Shown in pieces: positions 749 through 31,408 of a DNA stretch of 35,825 nt. A program made the position numbers and the translations under genes. The stretch is from Candidatus Limnocylindria bacterium (GTDB lineage Bacteria > Chloroflexota > Limnocylindria > P2-11E), in contig DATDEH010000004.1 in the NCBI GenBank assembly GCA_036523395.1, positions 1 through 35,825 on the forward strand, given 5' to 3'. The first letter of the stretch is position 1. Every line of letters begins with the position of its first letter. The notes below the pieces were generated by a model. It was not told the DNA's origin, did no database searches, and saw only the letters and a list, made by a program, of their open reading frames with translations.

Positions 749-1394
749 CCACTCGATACGACGAACGATAGAAGGTCACCCTTCCGGCATCGGTGTCGAT
801 CACCCCGTACGCCGCTCGTGGATCGCCGTCACGCGGCTGGCCCACGCTTCCGGGGTTGATCAGCATGCGGTCGGTCAGCTCGTATGGGTGCTCCTGCTTG
901 GGCTCGGTGAAACGGACGCCGGTCGGGAATTCTCGGAACAGCGCCGGAACGTGGGTGTGGCCGTTGCAGCAGAACGGCGTGCTCGAGCGCGCGAGCGTGG
1001 CGCCCGCCGTGAGCGAGTTCGTGACGTACTCCCACAGCGGATCGCGCAGGCTGCCGTGACAGAGCGTGAATCGCTCCACGCTGTGCACCGTGGGCAGCGC
1101 GGCGAGCTCGTCACGTTCAGCGGATGAGAGCCAGTCGGAGTGAAGCCGCGCCGCGACGCCCGCGCGATCGTGGAAGAACTCGATGCCCTCCCCCGTCGCG
1201 ACCGCGCGGTCGTGGTTGCCCTGCACGAGGAGCGCGTTCCGTTCGCGCAGCAGCGCGAGGGTCTCCGACGGATCCGGACCGTAGCCGACGGTGTCACCCG
1301 TCACCCACAGGGCATCGACCCGCCCGAGCGCGGCAAGGACCGCCTCGAGCGCCACGAGGTTGGCGTGGATATCGGAGAGAAGACCTACGCGCAC
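675..1394 (-). CDS. Calcineurin-like metallophosphoesterase (YfcE/MJ0936 type)
   Basis: This is a 239-residue cytosolic two-metal phosphoesterase. The metal-ligand motifs appear in order: DIH at residues 8-10, GDTVGYGPDP from 33, GNHD at 59-62, CHG near 113 and a late GHTH. This set and the length match the small YfcE/MJ0936/Lpp1-like phosphodiesterase group, which acts on small phosphodiesters or nucleotides. The actual substrate cannot be told from sequence. The GTG start at 1394 overlaps the end of the HisA-like gene by 10 bases, and the end overlaps the PrcB-like lipoprotein gene, so it sits in the middle of a tightly packed operon. Confidence 0.88.
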   Translation of the reverse strand: MRVGLLSDIHANLVALEAVLAALGRVDALWVTGDTVGYGPDPSETLALLRERNALLVQGNHDRAVATGEGIEFFHDRAGVAARLHSDWLSSAERDELAALPTVHSVERFTLCHGSLRDPLWEYVTNSLTAGATLARSSTPFCCNGHTHVPALFREFPTGVRFTEPKQEHPYELTDRMLINPGSVGQPRDGDPRAAYGVIDTDAGRVTFYRSSYRVDETQRRIRERGLPEMFADRLAFGV

Positions 1395-2098
1395 GCGGCC
1401 TTCGCCTCGGCGAGGGTGAAGCGCTGGTCGAGGAACGCACGTCCGATCACGACCGACGCTGCGCCCCAGCGCGCGAGCGCGCGCACATCCTCGACGTCGC
1501 GCACGCCACCGCCAGTGTGGAACGTCACGCCGGGTCCGGTCTTCGCGCGGAGCCGTTCCATGAGAACGAGTGGCGGGCCACCGAGCCGGCCGTCCGCGCT
1601 CGTGTCGACGACGTAGAGCGCCCGGATACCGCGCAGCGCCGCGATCTCCGCCGCCCCCGCGGCGTCGCGACCCGACGCGCGCTTCACGAGATCAGGCTCG
1701 CCACCGCGCGGCGCGAGCGCTCCATCCCGGGCCTCGATCTCGACGATCGCGCGGTCACCCAGTCGCGCGATGCGGCGAAGCAGCGCGTCGTCTCCGAAGA
1801 CGGCGCTCGAGAAGAGCACGCCGGCGAAACCCGCGGCGATCGCCTCCTGCGCCTTCGCGAGCGACGAGATGCCGCCGGCGAGACGGCACGGTACCGAGGC
1901 GCTCCGCGCGATGCCCGCGAGCGTCTCCGCGTTCGCGTAGTCGCCACGCTCGGCACCGTCCAGGTCCACCAGATGCAGCTCCTCCGCGCCTTCGCGGAGG
2001 TAGCGCGAGGCGAGCTCGCGCGGCTCGATGTCGGCACCGGCGCCGCCGCGATACGCGACACGTCCGGCGCGCACGTCGACCGATGGCACGATCACCAC
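1385..2098 (-). CDS. Divergent HisA-like TIM-barrel isomerase
   Basis: This 237-residue TIM barrel is related to HisA, which isomerises the ProFAR aminoaldose to an aminoketose in histidine synthesis. Recognisable HisA features are the catalytic-type Asp8 in the first strand (PSVDVRAG), LVDLDGA at about 43-49, GGISS at 75-79, the DTSADG motif from residue 165 and the phosphate loops GGGV (197-200) and IGRAF. By my alignment the second catalytic Asp (Asp127 of Thermotoga HisA) is Glu122 here, and the usual Gly-Trp that follows is Gly-Gly. No other his genes are nearby. It starts with GTG and overlaps the rsmG stop by 7 bases. It may be a true but divergent HisA, or a paralogue acting on another sugar-phosphate compound. 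Confidence 0.7.
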   Translation of the reverse strand: MVIVPSVDVRAGRVAYRGGAGADIEPRELASRYLREGAEELHLVDLDGAERGDYANAETLAGIARSASVPCRLAGGISSLAKAQEAIAAGFAGVLFSSAVFGDDALLRRIARLGDRAIVEIEARDGALAPRGGEPDLVKRASGRDAAGAAEIAALRGIRALYVVDTSADGRLGGPPLVLMERLRAKTGPGVTFHTGGGVRDVEDVRALARWGAASVVIGRAFLDQRFTLAEAKAACA

Positions 2099-2820
2099 GG
2101 CCGGCGGCGCGCTTCCGCTGACGTTCGCGGGTAGCGCAGGGGCGTGGCGCGCGTCTTTCGCACGACGACGAGATTGCGGCCGGGCAGCTCATCACCGACG
2201 CCGAGCGAGACCGTCGGCACGATGGATGCGATCTCACCACCGAGCGCGGCGCACGCTTTCTGCGCGCCCGGCAGCTCCGCGTCGACACGTCCCTTCCATA
2301 CGATCGCGTCGCCGCCGGGCCGGAGGAGCGGAAGGATGTACTCGCTGACCATGCCCAGAGTCCCCACGGCACGGGCCGTACCGACGTCGTAGCGGTCGCG
2401 ACGCTCGCGGCCAAGTGCTTCCGCGCGCTCGTTGCGGATCTCGACGTCAGTCAGTCCGAGGAGCGCGCACACATCCTCGAGAAAGCGGACCTTCTTGCCC
2501 ACCGACTCGACCAGCGTCAAGCGGATGTTCGGCAGGGCGATACGCAGGGCGAGACCGGGAAAGCCCGCGCCGCTGCCGACGTCGACGACACGCTCGCGGC
2601 CCGTCCAGCGTCGCACGGCGATCGCGGTGAAGGAATCGAGGAAATGCTTACGCGCGATGTCGTGAGGCTCGGTGATCGCTGTGAGGTTCACCGACGTATT
2701 GCGTTCGATGAGCTCATTGCCGAGACGCTCGCAGAGTGCGATCTGCCCGGACGACAGCGCGAGCCCCAGTCGCGCCGCCTCGACCGCGAGCGCGGCGAAC
2801 GGCGGCGAGGCGACGGGCAC
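2092..2820 (-). CDS. rsmG: 16S rRNA (guanine527-N7)-methyltransferase RsmG
   Basis: This 242-residue SAM-dependent methyltransferase modifies G527 in the 530 loop of 16S rRNA. Family signatures are clear: NLTAI near residue 45, DSF at the helix before the fold, the SAM-binding VDVGSGAGFPGLALRIALP from about 79, LVESVGKKVRFL, the TARAV motif that carries the catalytic Arg, and the C-terminal KT…YPR segment. The start is the GTG at 2820, only 17 bases from the GTG of the divergent cupredoxin gene. A TACGAT box ends 6 bases before it with no ribosome binding site, which suggests a leaderless message. It heads the operon that continues into the HisA-like gene. Confidence 0.93.
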   Translation of the reverse strand: MPVASPPFAALAVEAARLGLALSSGQIALCERLGNELIERNTSVNLTAITEPHDIARKHFLDSFTAIAVRRWTGRERVVDVGSGAGFPGLALRIALPNIRLTLVESVGKKVRFLEDVCALLGLTDVEIRNERAEALGRERRDRYDVGTARAVGTLGMVSEYILPLLRPGGDAIVWKGRVDAELPGAQKACAALGGEIASIVPTVSLGVGDELPGRNLVVVRKTRATPLRYPRTSAEARRRPW

Positions 2821-2838
2821 GCCGGTATCGTACGTGCG
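2820..2838. promoter_or_regulatory. Ultra-compact divergent leaderless promoter pair
   Basis: Only 17 bases separate the GTG of rsmG from the GTG of the cupredoxin gene. On the plus strand TATCGT occupies 2826-2831 and the GTG at 2838 follows after 6 bases. On the minus strand TACGAT occupies 2832-2827 and the GTG at 2820 follows after 6 bases. The two TANNNT boxes overlap by 5 bases within a near-palindrome. This geometry fits two -10 elements whose transcripts begin at the start codon. No good -35 is visible for either, and that region would lie inside the opposite gene. The promoter call is inference. Confidence 0.5.
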
Positions 2839-3401
2839 TGAGGATGAGAGCGGTCCGCTGCGCCGCGTTCGCGTGCGTGCTGCTGTTCTTCGCCGTCACG
2901 TCGAACGCGTCCGCGGCGACGCTCACCGTCGAGATCTCCGGCTTCGCGTTCAGGCCTGACGCGGTGTTCATCACTGCCGGCGACACCGTGACCTGGACGA
3001 ACCGCGACAGCGCGCAGCACAGCATCGTCTTCCTCACCGGGCTCGGTCAGACGGAGAACTTCGGGCTCGGCCAGAGCTCGTCGCTGCGGTTCATCGCTCC
3101 GGGCACGTACAAATACATCTGCGGGCTGCACGGGCAGAGCATGTCGGGCACCGTGGTGGTCGAGCCGGCATCGGGTCCGATCGCGGCTGCTTCGGGAGGT
3201 GCGCCGACGTTCGTGCCTCCGACCCCGACCCCGATCCCCAGCGCCGGCGTCGTCGTGCGCGGCGCCGACGAGGTGCCCGAGCTGCCCGCGGGCGCGGCAG
3301 ACAGTCGGGTCGACGGCGGCCGCGCCGCGGTCTTCGGCGGGATCGGCGCGCTCCTCGTTTACATGGTCGTGCGCGGCGGCTCACTACTCCGCCGCCGATG
3401 A
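2838..3401 (+). CDS. Membrane-anchored cupredoxin (blue-copper) protein 1
   Basis: This 187-residue exported electron-transfer type protein has a signal peptide (hydrophobic core FACVLLFFAV, cleavage near ASA-A) and one plastocyanin-like domain with the FAFRP and GDTVTWTNRD motifs. It then has a Pro/Thr linker (PTPTPIP) and a C-terminal membrane helix followed by Arg residues. The predicted type-1 copper ligands, counted from the ATG at 2844, are His59, Cys93, His96 and Met100. The last three have the spacing C-x2-H-x3-M, one residue longer than amicyanin. The start may be the GTG at 2838, given the TATCGT box 6 bases upstream, or the ATG at 2844. Neither has a normal ribosome binding site. 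It overlaps the next, paralogous gene by 4 bases. Confidence 0.85.
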   Translation: MRMRAVRCAAFACVLLFFAVTSNASAATLTVEISGFAFRPDAVFITAGDTVTWTNRDSAQHSIVFLTGLGQTENFGLGQSSSLRFIAPGTYKYICGLHGQSMSGTVVVEPASGPIAAASGGAPTFVPPTPTPIPSAGVVVRGADEVPELPAGAADSRVDGGRAAVFGGIGALLVYMVVRGGSLLRRR

Positions 3402-4027
3402 GACTGCGGGCCGCGCGCCCCGGGGCCCTTGCCGGTCTGCTCCTCTTCGTCGCCCTCGCCTCGACCGCAGCCGCCGCGACAACGACCGTCAACATCCAGG
3501 GCTTCGCCTTCCAGCCACCCAGCGTGACGATCAACGTCGGCGACACCGTCACGTGGACGAACAAGGACGCGGCAGCTCACAGCGCCGTCGTGAACGGAGT
3601 CGGGCAAACACCTGTGCTCGCGCAGAACCAGAGCGCATCGCTGACGTTCACCGCGGCAGGCACGTTCCCCTACATCTGCGGCATCCACCGCGCGGCGATG
3701 ATGGGCACCGTCATCGTGCGCGCCGCGGCCACGCCTGTTCCAACACCGATCCCTACGCCGGTGCCGACGGCGCGACCGACCGTCGCGCCCACCGTCGCAC
3801 CGACGGTCGAACCGACGCCGACCGCGAGCCCTTCACCGACGCCGAGCCCAGCCCCCACGACGGCCGCGCCGAGCGCGACACCGACCATCGCGGTCGTGGT
3901 GCCGACGCAGCAAGCGCCCGCTCCTGCCGCATCGAACGACGGCGGAGCATCTCCGCTGCTCATCGCCGGGGCCGCGGTCGTGGTCATCGGGCTCGTTGCC
4001 TTCGCTTTGACACGTATCCGGCGCTAG
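3398..4027 (+). CDS. Membrane-anchored cupredoxin protein 2
   Basis: This 209-residue paralogue of the preceding gene is translationally coupled to it through an ATGA overlap. It has a signal peptide (about residues 1-26), a cupredoxin domain (about 28-108) with predicted copper ligands His61, Cys94, His97 and Met101, then about 75 residues of Pro/Thr/Ala repeats typical of a cell-wall-spanning linker. It ends in a single membrane helix (LLIAGAAVVVIGLVAFAL) and a short basic tail. As in its neighbour, the ligand spacing is C-x2-H-x3-M. The two proteins probably carry electrons at the outer face of the membrane. The redox partner is unknown, and no oxidase or nitrite reductase gene is nearby. 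Confidence 0.87.
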   Translation: MRLRAARPGALAGLLLFVALASTAAAATTTVNIQGFAFQPPSVTINVGDTVTWTNKDAAAHSAVVNGVGQTPVLAQNQSASLTFTAAGTFPYICGIHRAAMMGTVIVRAAATPVPTPIPTPVPTARPTVAPTVAPTVEPTPTASPSPTPSPAPTTAAPSATPTIAVVVPTQQAPAPAASNDGGASPLLIAGAAVVVIGLVAFALTRIRR

Positions 4028-4054: not shown

Positions 4055-4651
4055 ATGCCGAGTGAGACAATCGAGCGACCGATGACGACCCTCCGCGTCG
4101 CCACACCCGCGGATGACATCGCCGAAGTGCTCATCGACGAGAAGGCGATCGCTGCGAAGGTGCGCGAGCTCGGCACGGCGATCGCGGACGACTATCGCGG
4201 CAAAGACGTCGTGCTTGTCAGCATCCTCAAGGGAGCGCTGCCATTCCTCGCCGACCTCATGCGCCAGATGCCGATCCCCCTCGCGCTCGACTTCCTCGAG
4301 CTCTCCTCGTACGGGGAGGCGACCGAGTCCAGCGGCAACGTGCGGATCCTGAAGGACCTCGCCAAATCGATCGAGGGCCGCGACGTCGTCGTGGTCGAGG
4401 ACATCCTCGACACCGGGCAAACGCTCTCCTATGTGATCGAGCACCTGCGTTCGAAGCAGCCCGCATCCGTAAGGCTGTGCACGCTGCTCGACAAGCCGGC
4501 GCGTCGCATCGTGCCGATACAGATCGACTATCGCGGGTTCGAGATCCCCGACAAGTTCGTCGTGGGATACGGGCTTGACTACGCCGAGCGGTACCGCAAC
4601 CTCCCGTTCATCGGCGTGCTCAAGCCGGAGGTGTATCGAGGCGTGCCGTGA
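4055..4651 (+). CDS. hpt: Hypoxanthine (guanine) phosphoribosyltransferase
   Basis: This 198-residue type I phosphoribosyltransferase salvages hypoxanthine or guanine with PRPP. The PRPP loop VVVEDILDTGQTL spans residues 112-124 with its acidic pair Glu115-Asp116. The SILKGAL segment (56-62), the flexible-loop SSYG and the C-terminal purine-binding part (FVVGYGLDYAERYRNLP) are all present. The ATG at 4055 has only a short purine run (AGGG) before it. An in-frame ATG at 4082 would shorten the unaligned N-terminus by nine residues. Its TGA overlaps the GTG start of the SpoIID gene, so the two are coupled. In many bacteria hpt sits beside tilS or ftsH, but not here. Confidence 0.92.
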   Translation: MPSETIERPMTTLRVATPADDIAEVLIDEKAIAAKVRELGTAIADDYRGKDVVLVSILKGALPFLADLMRQMPIPLALDFLELSSYGEATESSGNVRILKDLAKSIEGRDVVVVEDILDTGQTLSYVIEHLRSKQPASVRLCTLLDKPARRIVPIQIDYRGFEIPDKFVVGYGLDYAERYRNLPFIGVLKPEVYRGVP

Positions 4652-30955: not shown

Positions 30956-30961
30956 TAGACT
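30956..30961 (+). promoter_or_regulatory. Possible -10 element (TAGACT) of the DUF3052-like gene
   Basis: TAGACT is followed by CGCTGC and then the GTG at 30968, giving a 6-base gap and no room for a ribosome binding site. It is the same arrangement as at 2838 and 30522. A -35 is not evident. Confidence 0.45.
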
Positions 30962-30967
30962 CGCTGC

Positions 30968-31408
30968 GTGGCCCAGCCCGGCGGCCTTCGCGCCATCGAA
31001 GAGGTGGTGCCCAGACTCGGCGCGAAAGCGGGTTTCCCAGCCCTACGTATCGGCCACGTGACGAAGTACGACCGGCCGCTCGAGCACCTGACCGGGCAGC
31101 TCGATATCGCTCCGCTGAAGCTGCCACTCCGCGCGCGCGATGGACGCTACGGTCTGGTGCTCTGCTTCTCACTCGATGAGGTCGACCCACCCAGGCTGGC
31201 GCGCGAGCTCGTTCGCGTCACCCATCCCGACGGAACGATCTGGGTCGTGGTGTGGAAGAAGGATCATCTTCCGCCGGGTGTCCTGTCGTGGGACGAGGCG
31301 CAGCGGGTGATGCTCACGACGGCCTGGGTCGATAACAAGATCCTGTCGCTCGGCGAGCAGGTCTACGCGACCCGTTACGTCCGCCGGCGCCGGCCGGCGA
31401 AGGTCTAG
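30968..31408 (+). CDS. DUF3052-like protein of unknown function
   Basis: This 146-residue protein has no signal or membrane segment. The alternating pattern with YGLVLCFSLDEVDPPRLARELVRVTHPDGTIWVVVWKKD and a final WVDNKILSLGEQVYATRYVRRR resembles DUF3052 proteins from Actinobacteria, in which an acidic segment, a DG-x-IWV strand and a C-terminal wATR strand recur. The match is by eye and not certain. The start is the GTG at 30968, with a TAGACT box 6 bases upstream that suggests a leaderless message. The next gene starts 2 bases after its stop. Confidence 0.6.
   Translation: MAQPGGLRAIEEVVPRLGAKAGFPALRIGHVTKYDRPLEHLTGQLDIAPLKLPLRARDGRYGLVLCFSLDEVDPPRLARELVRVTHPDGTIWVVVWKKDHLPPGVLSWDEAQRVMLTTAWVDNKILSLGEQVYATRYVRRRRPAKV

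Follow-up and report, generated by a model that had tools for sequence, protein, structure and literature searches.

The divergently oriented genes for a 16S rRNA methyltransferase, rsmG, and a cupredoxin-like protein appear to share one near-symmetrical −10 element, TATCGTA, which would serve as a bidirectional promoter and give rise to two leaderless mRNAs beginning at the GTG start codons at positions 2838 and 2820. The probability of this reading, drawn from sequence comparison, is put at about 0.74. The window, the whole stretch of 35,825 nucleotides that was analysed, is contig 4 of a 3.0-Mb draft genome from an uncultured Chloroflexota lineage. As a single locus the arrangement is modest; the recurrent module to which it belongs is more interesting.

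The features of the locus are as follows.

1385..2098, minus strand: hisA/hisF-like gene, overlapping the end of rsmG (Pfam His_biosynth, 3.6e-36)
2092..2820, minus strand: rsmG (GidB), 16S rRNA methyltransferase G (Pfam GidB, 4.7e-41)
2818..2820, minus strand: GTG start codon of rsmG, predicted 5′ end of its transcript (+1 = 2820)
2826..2832, either strand: symmetrical −10 core common to the two genes, TATCGTA, which reads TANNNTA in either direction (sequence and conservation in relatives)
2826..2831, plus strand: TATCGT, predicted −10 element of the cupredoxin gene (sequence and conservation)
2827..2832, minus strand: TACGAT, predicted −10 element of rsmG (TANNNT before rsmG in relatives)
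2838..2840, plus strand: GTG start codon of the cupredoxin gene, predicted 5′ end of its transcript (+1 = 2838; GTG favoured in relatives)
2838..3401, plus strand: cupredoxin-like gene with an N-terminal hydrophobic segment, recognized by eye (Pfam Cupredoxin_1, 2.2e-12)
2844..2846, plus strand: ATG, alternative in-frame start of the cupredoxin gene (sequence; also present in locus L003 of genome G002)
3398..4027, plus strand: second cupredoxin-like gene, its start overlapping the stop of the first (Pfam Cupredoxin_1, 1.3e-11)

Architecture of the junction

Leftward from the junction, rsmG is followed by the His_biosynth gene and then by a metallophosphatase gene; the hisA/hisF-like gene and rsmG are likely to form one operon. 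The two GTG codons, at 2820 on the minus strand and 2838 on the plus strand, are separated by 17 nt (2821–2837), or 18 bp from start to start. A preliminary description of the DNA had reported this gap, a TANNNT box 6 nt before each GTG, and a 5-base overlap between the boxes, all of which prove correct to the base. TATCGT ends 6 nt before GTG 2838 on the plus strand, TACGAT ends 6 nt before GTG 2820 on the minus strand, and the two TANNNT readings are shifted by one base such that they share 2827–2831. If the start codons are taken as +1, the first T of TANNNT falls at −12 for both genes, and A2827 and T2831 occupy −11 and −7, respectively, in the rightward direction, with their roles swapped in the leftward direction.

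In the mechanism that we propose, RNA polymerase would bind TATCGTA (2826–2832) in either orientation and begin transcription 7 bases past the box, at G2838 rightward and at G2820 leftward. Each predicted start coincides with the initial G of a GTG start codon, so that neither the cupredoxin mRNA nor that of rsmG would have a leader, and the 17-bp gap would hold no leader, no Shine-Dalgarno sequence, and no separate promoter. The cupredoxin in the window could equally well begin at the ATG at 2844; use of this codon would give the mRNA a 6-nt leader if transcription starts at 2838.

The overlap of the two boxes is by itself weak evidence, because a second TANNNT, shifted by one base from the first, needs only one extra matching base. 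The window contains a single copy of the full motif, CAY-N5-TANNNTA-N5-RTG; 0 of 100 dinucleotide shuffles contain one, and the 3.0-Mb draft genome carries the motif at one place. The simpler pattern TANNNT-N6-RTG is not significant in the window, where 6 occurrences compare with a mean of 3.22 expected and 10 of 100 shuffles reach 6. In a survey of 300 kb of this genome, including the window, a simple codon model gave 283 genes; with several starts tried per gene, TANNNT was located 6 or 7 nt ahead of a candidate start in 12 of 56 divergently placed genes (the two in the window among them). There were 4 hits at 55 other first genes, 11 at 148 genes inside operons, and none at 24 genes at contig edges, as opposed to 4 at 3441 internal start codons. 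This enrichment before gene starts relative to internal start codons means that leaderless-type starts are a real feature of the genome. Another such start is visible elsewhere in the window, where TAGACT-N6-GTG (30956–30970) precedes the plus-strand gene at 30968–31408.

It is scarcely credible that two TANNNT boxes came to coincide here by chance in a genome rich in leaderless genes. The single extra base that suffices for the second box and the solitary N5/N5 site in the genome speak for such a coincidence; conservation in 13 loci of two families, a locked spacing, base-specific conservation, and recurrence, all described below, speak against it. On the sequences compared, it is conservation rather than overlap that makes the case against chance, and conservation has already largely refuted that explanation.

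Conservation of the shared box in relatives

Relatives were sought in 28 genomes of the family and one other genome of the order, and an rsmG match was obtained in 25 of the 29, giving 25 loci, the window included, with rsmG identities to the window that fall to 50%. A scan of spacings from 5 to 10 nt over all in-frame starts, with one hit taken per locus, shows that TANNNT precedes the rsmG start by 6–8 nt in 23 of the 25 loci and by 9 and 10 nt in the other two. A cupredoxin gene is immediately divergent from rsmG in 19 of the 25, and 13 of these 19 (the window, L003, L008–L016, L025, and L026) contain a shared TANNNTA together with an in-frame GTG start for the cupredoxin. L025 is from a second family of the order. 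The distance from box to GTG on the cupredoxin side is 6 nt in 12 of the 13 loci and 7 nt in L025, and the start-to-start distance is 18 bp twice, 19 bp nine times, 21 bp once, and 22 bp once. The gap, whose conservation across relatives the preliminary description had named as the check on its proposal, is thus conserved at 18–19 bp in 11 of 13 shared-box loci.

Two base-level comparisons bear on the cupredoxin direction. The base that is needed only by the plus-strand box is intact in all 13 GTG loci, compared with 3 of the 6 cupredoxin loci that have no in-frame GTG (Fisher p 0.021) and with 4 of all 12 other loci (Fisher p 4.6e-4); it is intact in 1 of the 6 loci with another neighbour. 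Of the 13 valine codons at this site, 12 are GTG, whereas GTG makes up 38% of the valine codons in these genes (p 7.9e-5). The p values for both the box base and the choice of GTG ignore shared ancestry and are hence optimistic.

The main doubt about the bidirectional reading concerns an ATG that abuts the box in the cupredoxin frame in 15 of the 19 cupredoxin loci and that could be the start of the protein; this genome is without that ATG. Under this alternative, only rsmG would use the box, and the cupredoxin mRNA would have a leader, begin inside rsmG, and be translated from ATG (the box-abutting one in relatives, 2844 here). An in-frame GTG is absent from the site in 6 of the 19 loci (L004, L006, L017, L021, L022, and L024), which also speaks for it, as does the presence of the box in loci without a cupredoxin partner and in the wider set of loci considered below. 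We nonetheless consider it unlikely. The window, L003, L009, and L025 do not have the abutting ATG and yet keep both GTG and TANNNTA, the symmetric base tracks GTG, no Shine-Dalgarno sequence is seen by eye at the usual distance before either ATG, and the same two-sided module is found at unrelated gene pairs. In the six loci named above, the cupredoxin probably starts otherwise, because no in-frame GTG is present there, and perhaps an upstream promoter serves the gene. L021, which has a GTG at N7 that is out of frame with the cupredoxin, was grouped with these six.

In 6 of the 25 loci (L005, L007, L018–L020, and L023), rsmG has another divergent neighbour or the neighbour has moved, and the rsmG box stays. 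L018, in which a cupredoxin frame lies about 118 nt away and has no box, was grouped with these loci. In L023 (genome G010), the place next to rsmG is taken not by a cupredoxin but by a phosphoribosyltransferase-like frame that resembles, by eye, the gene at 4055–4651 of the window; the TANNNTA box is kept, and a TTG 9 nt away is a possible start.

The wider set comprises the best 80 of 538 GTDB loci, ten of which (L141–L150) are from genomes already counted and several of which are not from Chloroflexota. Among these 80, the nearest rsmG is 90% identical and belongs to a Chloroflexi MAG (VBFY01000008). TANNNT is located 6–8 nt before a candidate rsmG start in 41 of the 80 loci and in 33 of the 70 other than L141–L150, counts that come from less GC-rich genomes and carry no chance control. 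The bidirectional form (spacings 6–8) is found in 3 of the best 80, all within L141–L150. Many Anaerolineae and other loci (L151–L219) display TATAAT-like boxes 6–8 nt before candidate rsmG starts. Judged from these sequences, the leaderless state of rsmG may be ancient in the phylum.

Recurrence of the module at other gene pairs

The 29 genomes of the order were searched for the module with RTG starts 18–20 bp apart, along with an N3/N3 spacing control. The matches number 26 for N5/N5, 43 for N6/N5, and 15 for N6/N6, of which rsmG/cupredoxin loci account for 2 N5/N5 and 9 N6/N5. Raw counts relative to the reversed pattern are mixed (26 versus 6 for N5/N5, 43 versus 28 for N6/N5, 15 versus 20 for N6/N6, and 2 versus 15 for N3/N3), and position between genes was therefore used as the criterion. 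Raw motif counts were dropped as proof: a control pattern in which AT replaces TA, with the start codons unchanged, is as frequent as N5/N5 (32 versus 26), and N6/N6 is rarer than its reverse.

By position, 48 of the 73 remaining matches lie exactly between divergent coding starts (19 of 24 N5/N5, 18 of 34 N6/N5, and 11 of 15 N6/N6), compared with 0 of 32 matches to the AT control and neither of the two N3/N3 matches. The coding test has a cut-off of 60 codons; seven matches (L058, L091, L092, L097, L099, L102, and L229) failed it only because one of their two frames has 58 codons, and L061 (57 codons, one score at threshold) was likewise counted as a failure. A small number of gene pairs, each represented by several orthologues, supply many of the positives. 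The pairs below are among those grouped from all 73 matches, including those that failed the coding test, with Pfam names assigned to representatives; neither side is named in 29 matches.

Periplasmic binding protein/small protein: 9 module matches
Chromate transporter/unknown: 8 module matches
HIT/PlsY-like: 7 module matches by motif, plus L057 by eye
Zinc-ribbon/redoxin: 6 module matches
Sigma-54/membrane protein: 5 module matches
DAHP synthase/hexapeptide protein: 2 module matches

Two further sites in the genome of the window passed: L079, of the sigma-54/membrane protein pair, and the weaker L078, with a 63-codon frame on one side. L079 (G000:C60:14757-14780) lies between rpoN-like (sigma-54) and membrane-protein genes, a pair that recurs in G002, G004, G006, and G012. 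In the rest of the class, beyond the order, N5/N5 has 18 matches, 8 of them positioned between divergent coding starts, and is hardly commoner than the reversed control (18 versus 12). No −35 element is seen by eye in the window, and no −35 consensus is present in a profile of 74 promoter directions from 37 module sites, orthologues included; the only signal in the profile is a weak preference, perhaps a coding bias, for G at −20 and for A at −19 relative to the box.

We favour, with some reserve, the view that the 23–25 bp CAY-N5/6-TANNNTA-N5/6-RTG element, which sets the distance between divergent start codons at 18–20 bp, is in this order a reusable minimal leaderless gene junction on which unrelated conserved gene pairs have converged. 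Each half of such a junction would combine a start codon, a transcription start, and half of the shared −10 element, with no untranslated leader on either side. If so, divergent intergenic regions could hardly be shorter than these junctions, and the starts of two reading frames are tied to promoter geometry. Gene starts could then be corrected, with GTG chosen over a nearby ATG, and the distance between divergent start codons in leaderless-rich genomes should peak at 18–20 bp.

A separate observation concerns the redoxin of the zinc-ribbon/redoxin pair. All six motif-found loci (L063, L070, L073, L074, L088, and L102) contain an in-frame TGA at codon 59–61 of this AhpC/TSA-type gene, within F-[ST]-x-T-TGA-N-x-E-A-P, and in L074 and L088 the frame read through TGA goes on to a full-length protein. 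On this sequence pattern, the protein is likely to be a selenocysteine redoxin.

Polymerase exclusion and comparison with known promoters

The preliminary description had also held that polymerases could not open both promoters at once and that expression of the two genes would be mutually exclusive. The first part stands: two polymerases would not sit on the box together, by analogy with published bidirectional promoters, for which steric exclusion is a stated feature (PMC12825309). Mutually exclusive expression does not follow and is overstated. In the E. coli work as described in PMC12825309, each of the five bidirectional promoters studied had a basal transcription too low to cause competition, and interference arose once one direction was substantially activated. 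At this locus, polymerases would exclude each other on one DNA molecule during initiation only, and at ordinary low activity both mRNAs would be made and would coexist.

It is very improbable that the overlap was selected for alternate expression of rsmG and the cupredoxin. The two genes are not known to be functionally linked, the rsmG box is retained in the six loci where the neighbour differs or has moved, and the module serves unrelated pairs. Such selection would be in keeping with the steric exclusion just mentioned and with the EcoRV restriction-modification system, in which overlapping divergent core promoters couple genes (PMC5333194), but the five promoters tested, all of which lacked competition at their basal level, weigh against it.

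Bidirectional promoters and leaderless genes are each already known, and their combination in one box would be the new part. Among the matches listed for literature on leaderless and bidirectional or divergent promoters, as represented by titles and abstract openings, there is no shared leaderless promoter and no single shared −10 element with both start sites at start codons. 'Divergent' and 'bidirectional' have 0 occurrences in PMC12340547, and 'divergent transcription' has 0 in the available text of PMC3160421.

The EcoRV promoters likewise have overlapping divergent cores, and polymerase binding to them is exclusive; they are controlled by a C protein, and the C transcript is described as having a leader (PMC5333194). 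The nearest precedent found is the M. tuberculosis pair prpD (Rv1130)/Rv1129c, which also consists of adjacent divergent genes, both mapped as leaderless, in a study that calls closely juxtaposed divergent promoters common (PMC3898074). A shared −10 element or a fixed spacing of 18–19 bp is not described for this pair in the available text of that study.

With the bidirectional promoters of Warman, Grainger, and co-workers (PMC12825309, PMC10268837), the junction has in common a near-symmetrical −10 element in which, with the start codons as +1, −7T and −11A are reciprocally paired. Start sites in those promoters are most often 18 bp apart, the positions −7 and −11 then being common base pairs (PMC10268837, PMC12825309), whereas the 18 bp here is the distance between start codons, the start sites being predicted. 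In addition, both predicted +1 sites here coincide with start codons, such that both genes would be leaderless, and the base at −18 is C rather than the favoured T because +1 is G. With leaderless TANNNT genes (PMC3160421, PMC12340547), the junction shares a TANNNT that lies some 12 bp ahead of the start codon and serves as a −10 element with no leader; the signal has been described for other high-GC bacteria (PMC3160421), and leaderless expression from a TANNNT adjoining the start codon is reported from experiments in Deinococcus radiodurans (PMC12340547). The difference is that two such genes, on opposite strands, here have one common box. Taken together, the published 18-bp bidirectional layout and leaderless expression from TANNNT lead to the arrangement favoured here, in which one symmetrical box would yield two leaderless mRNAs.
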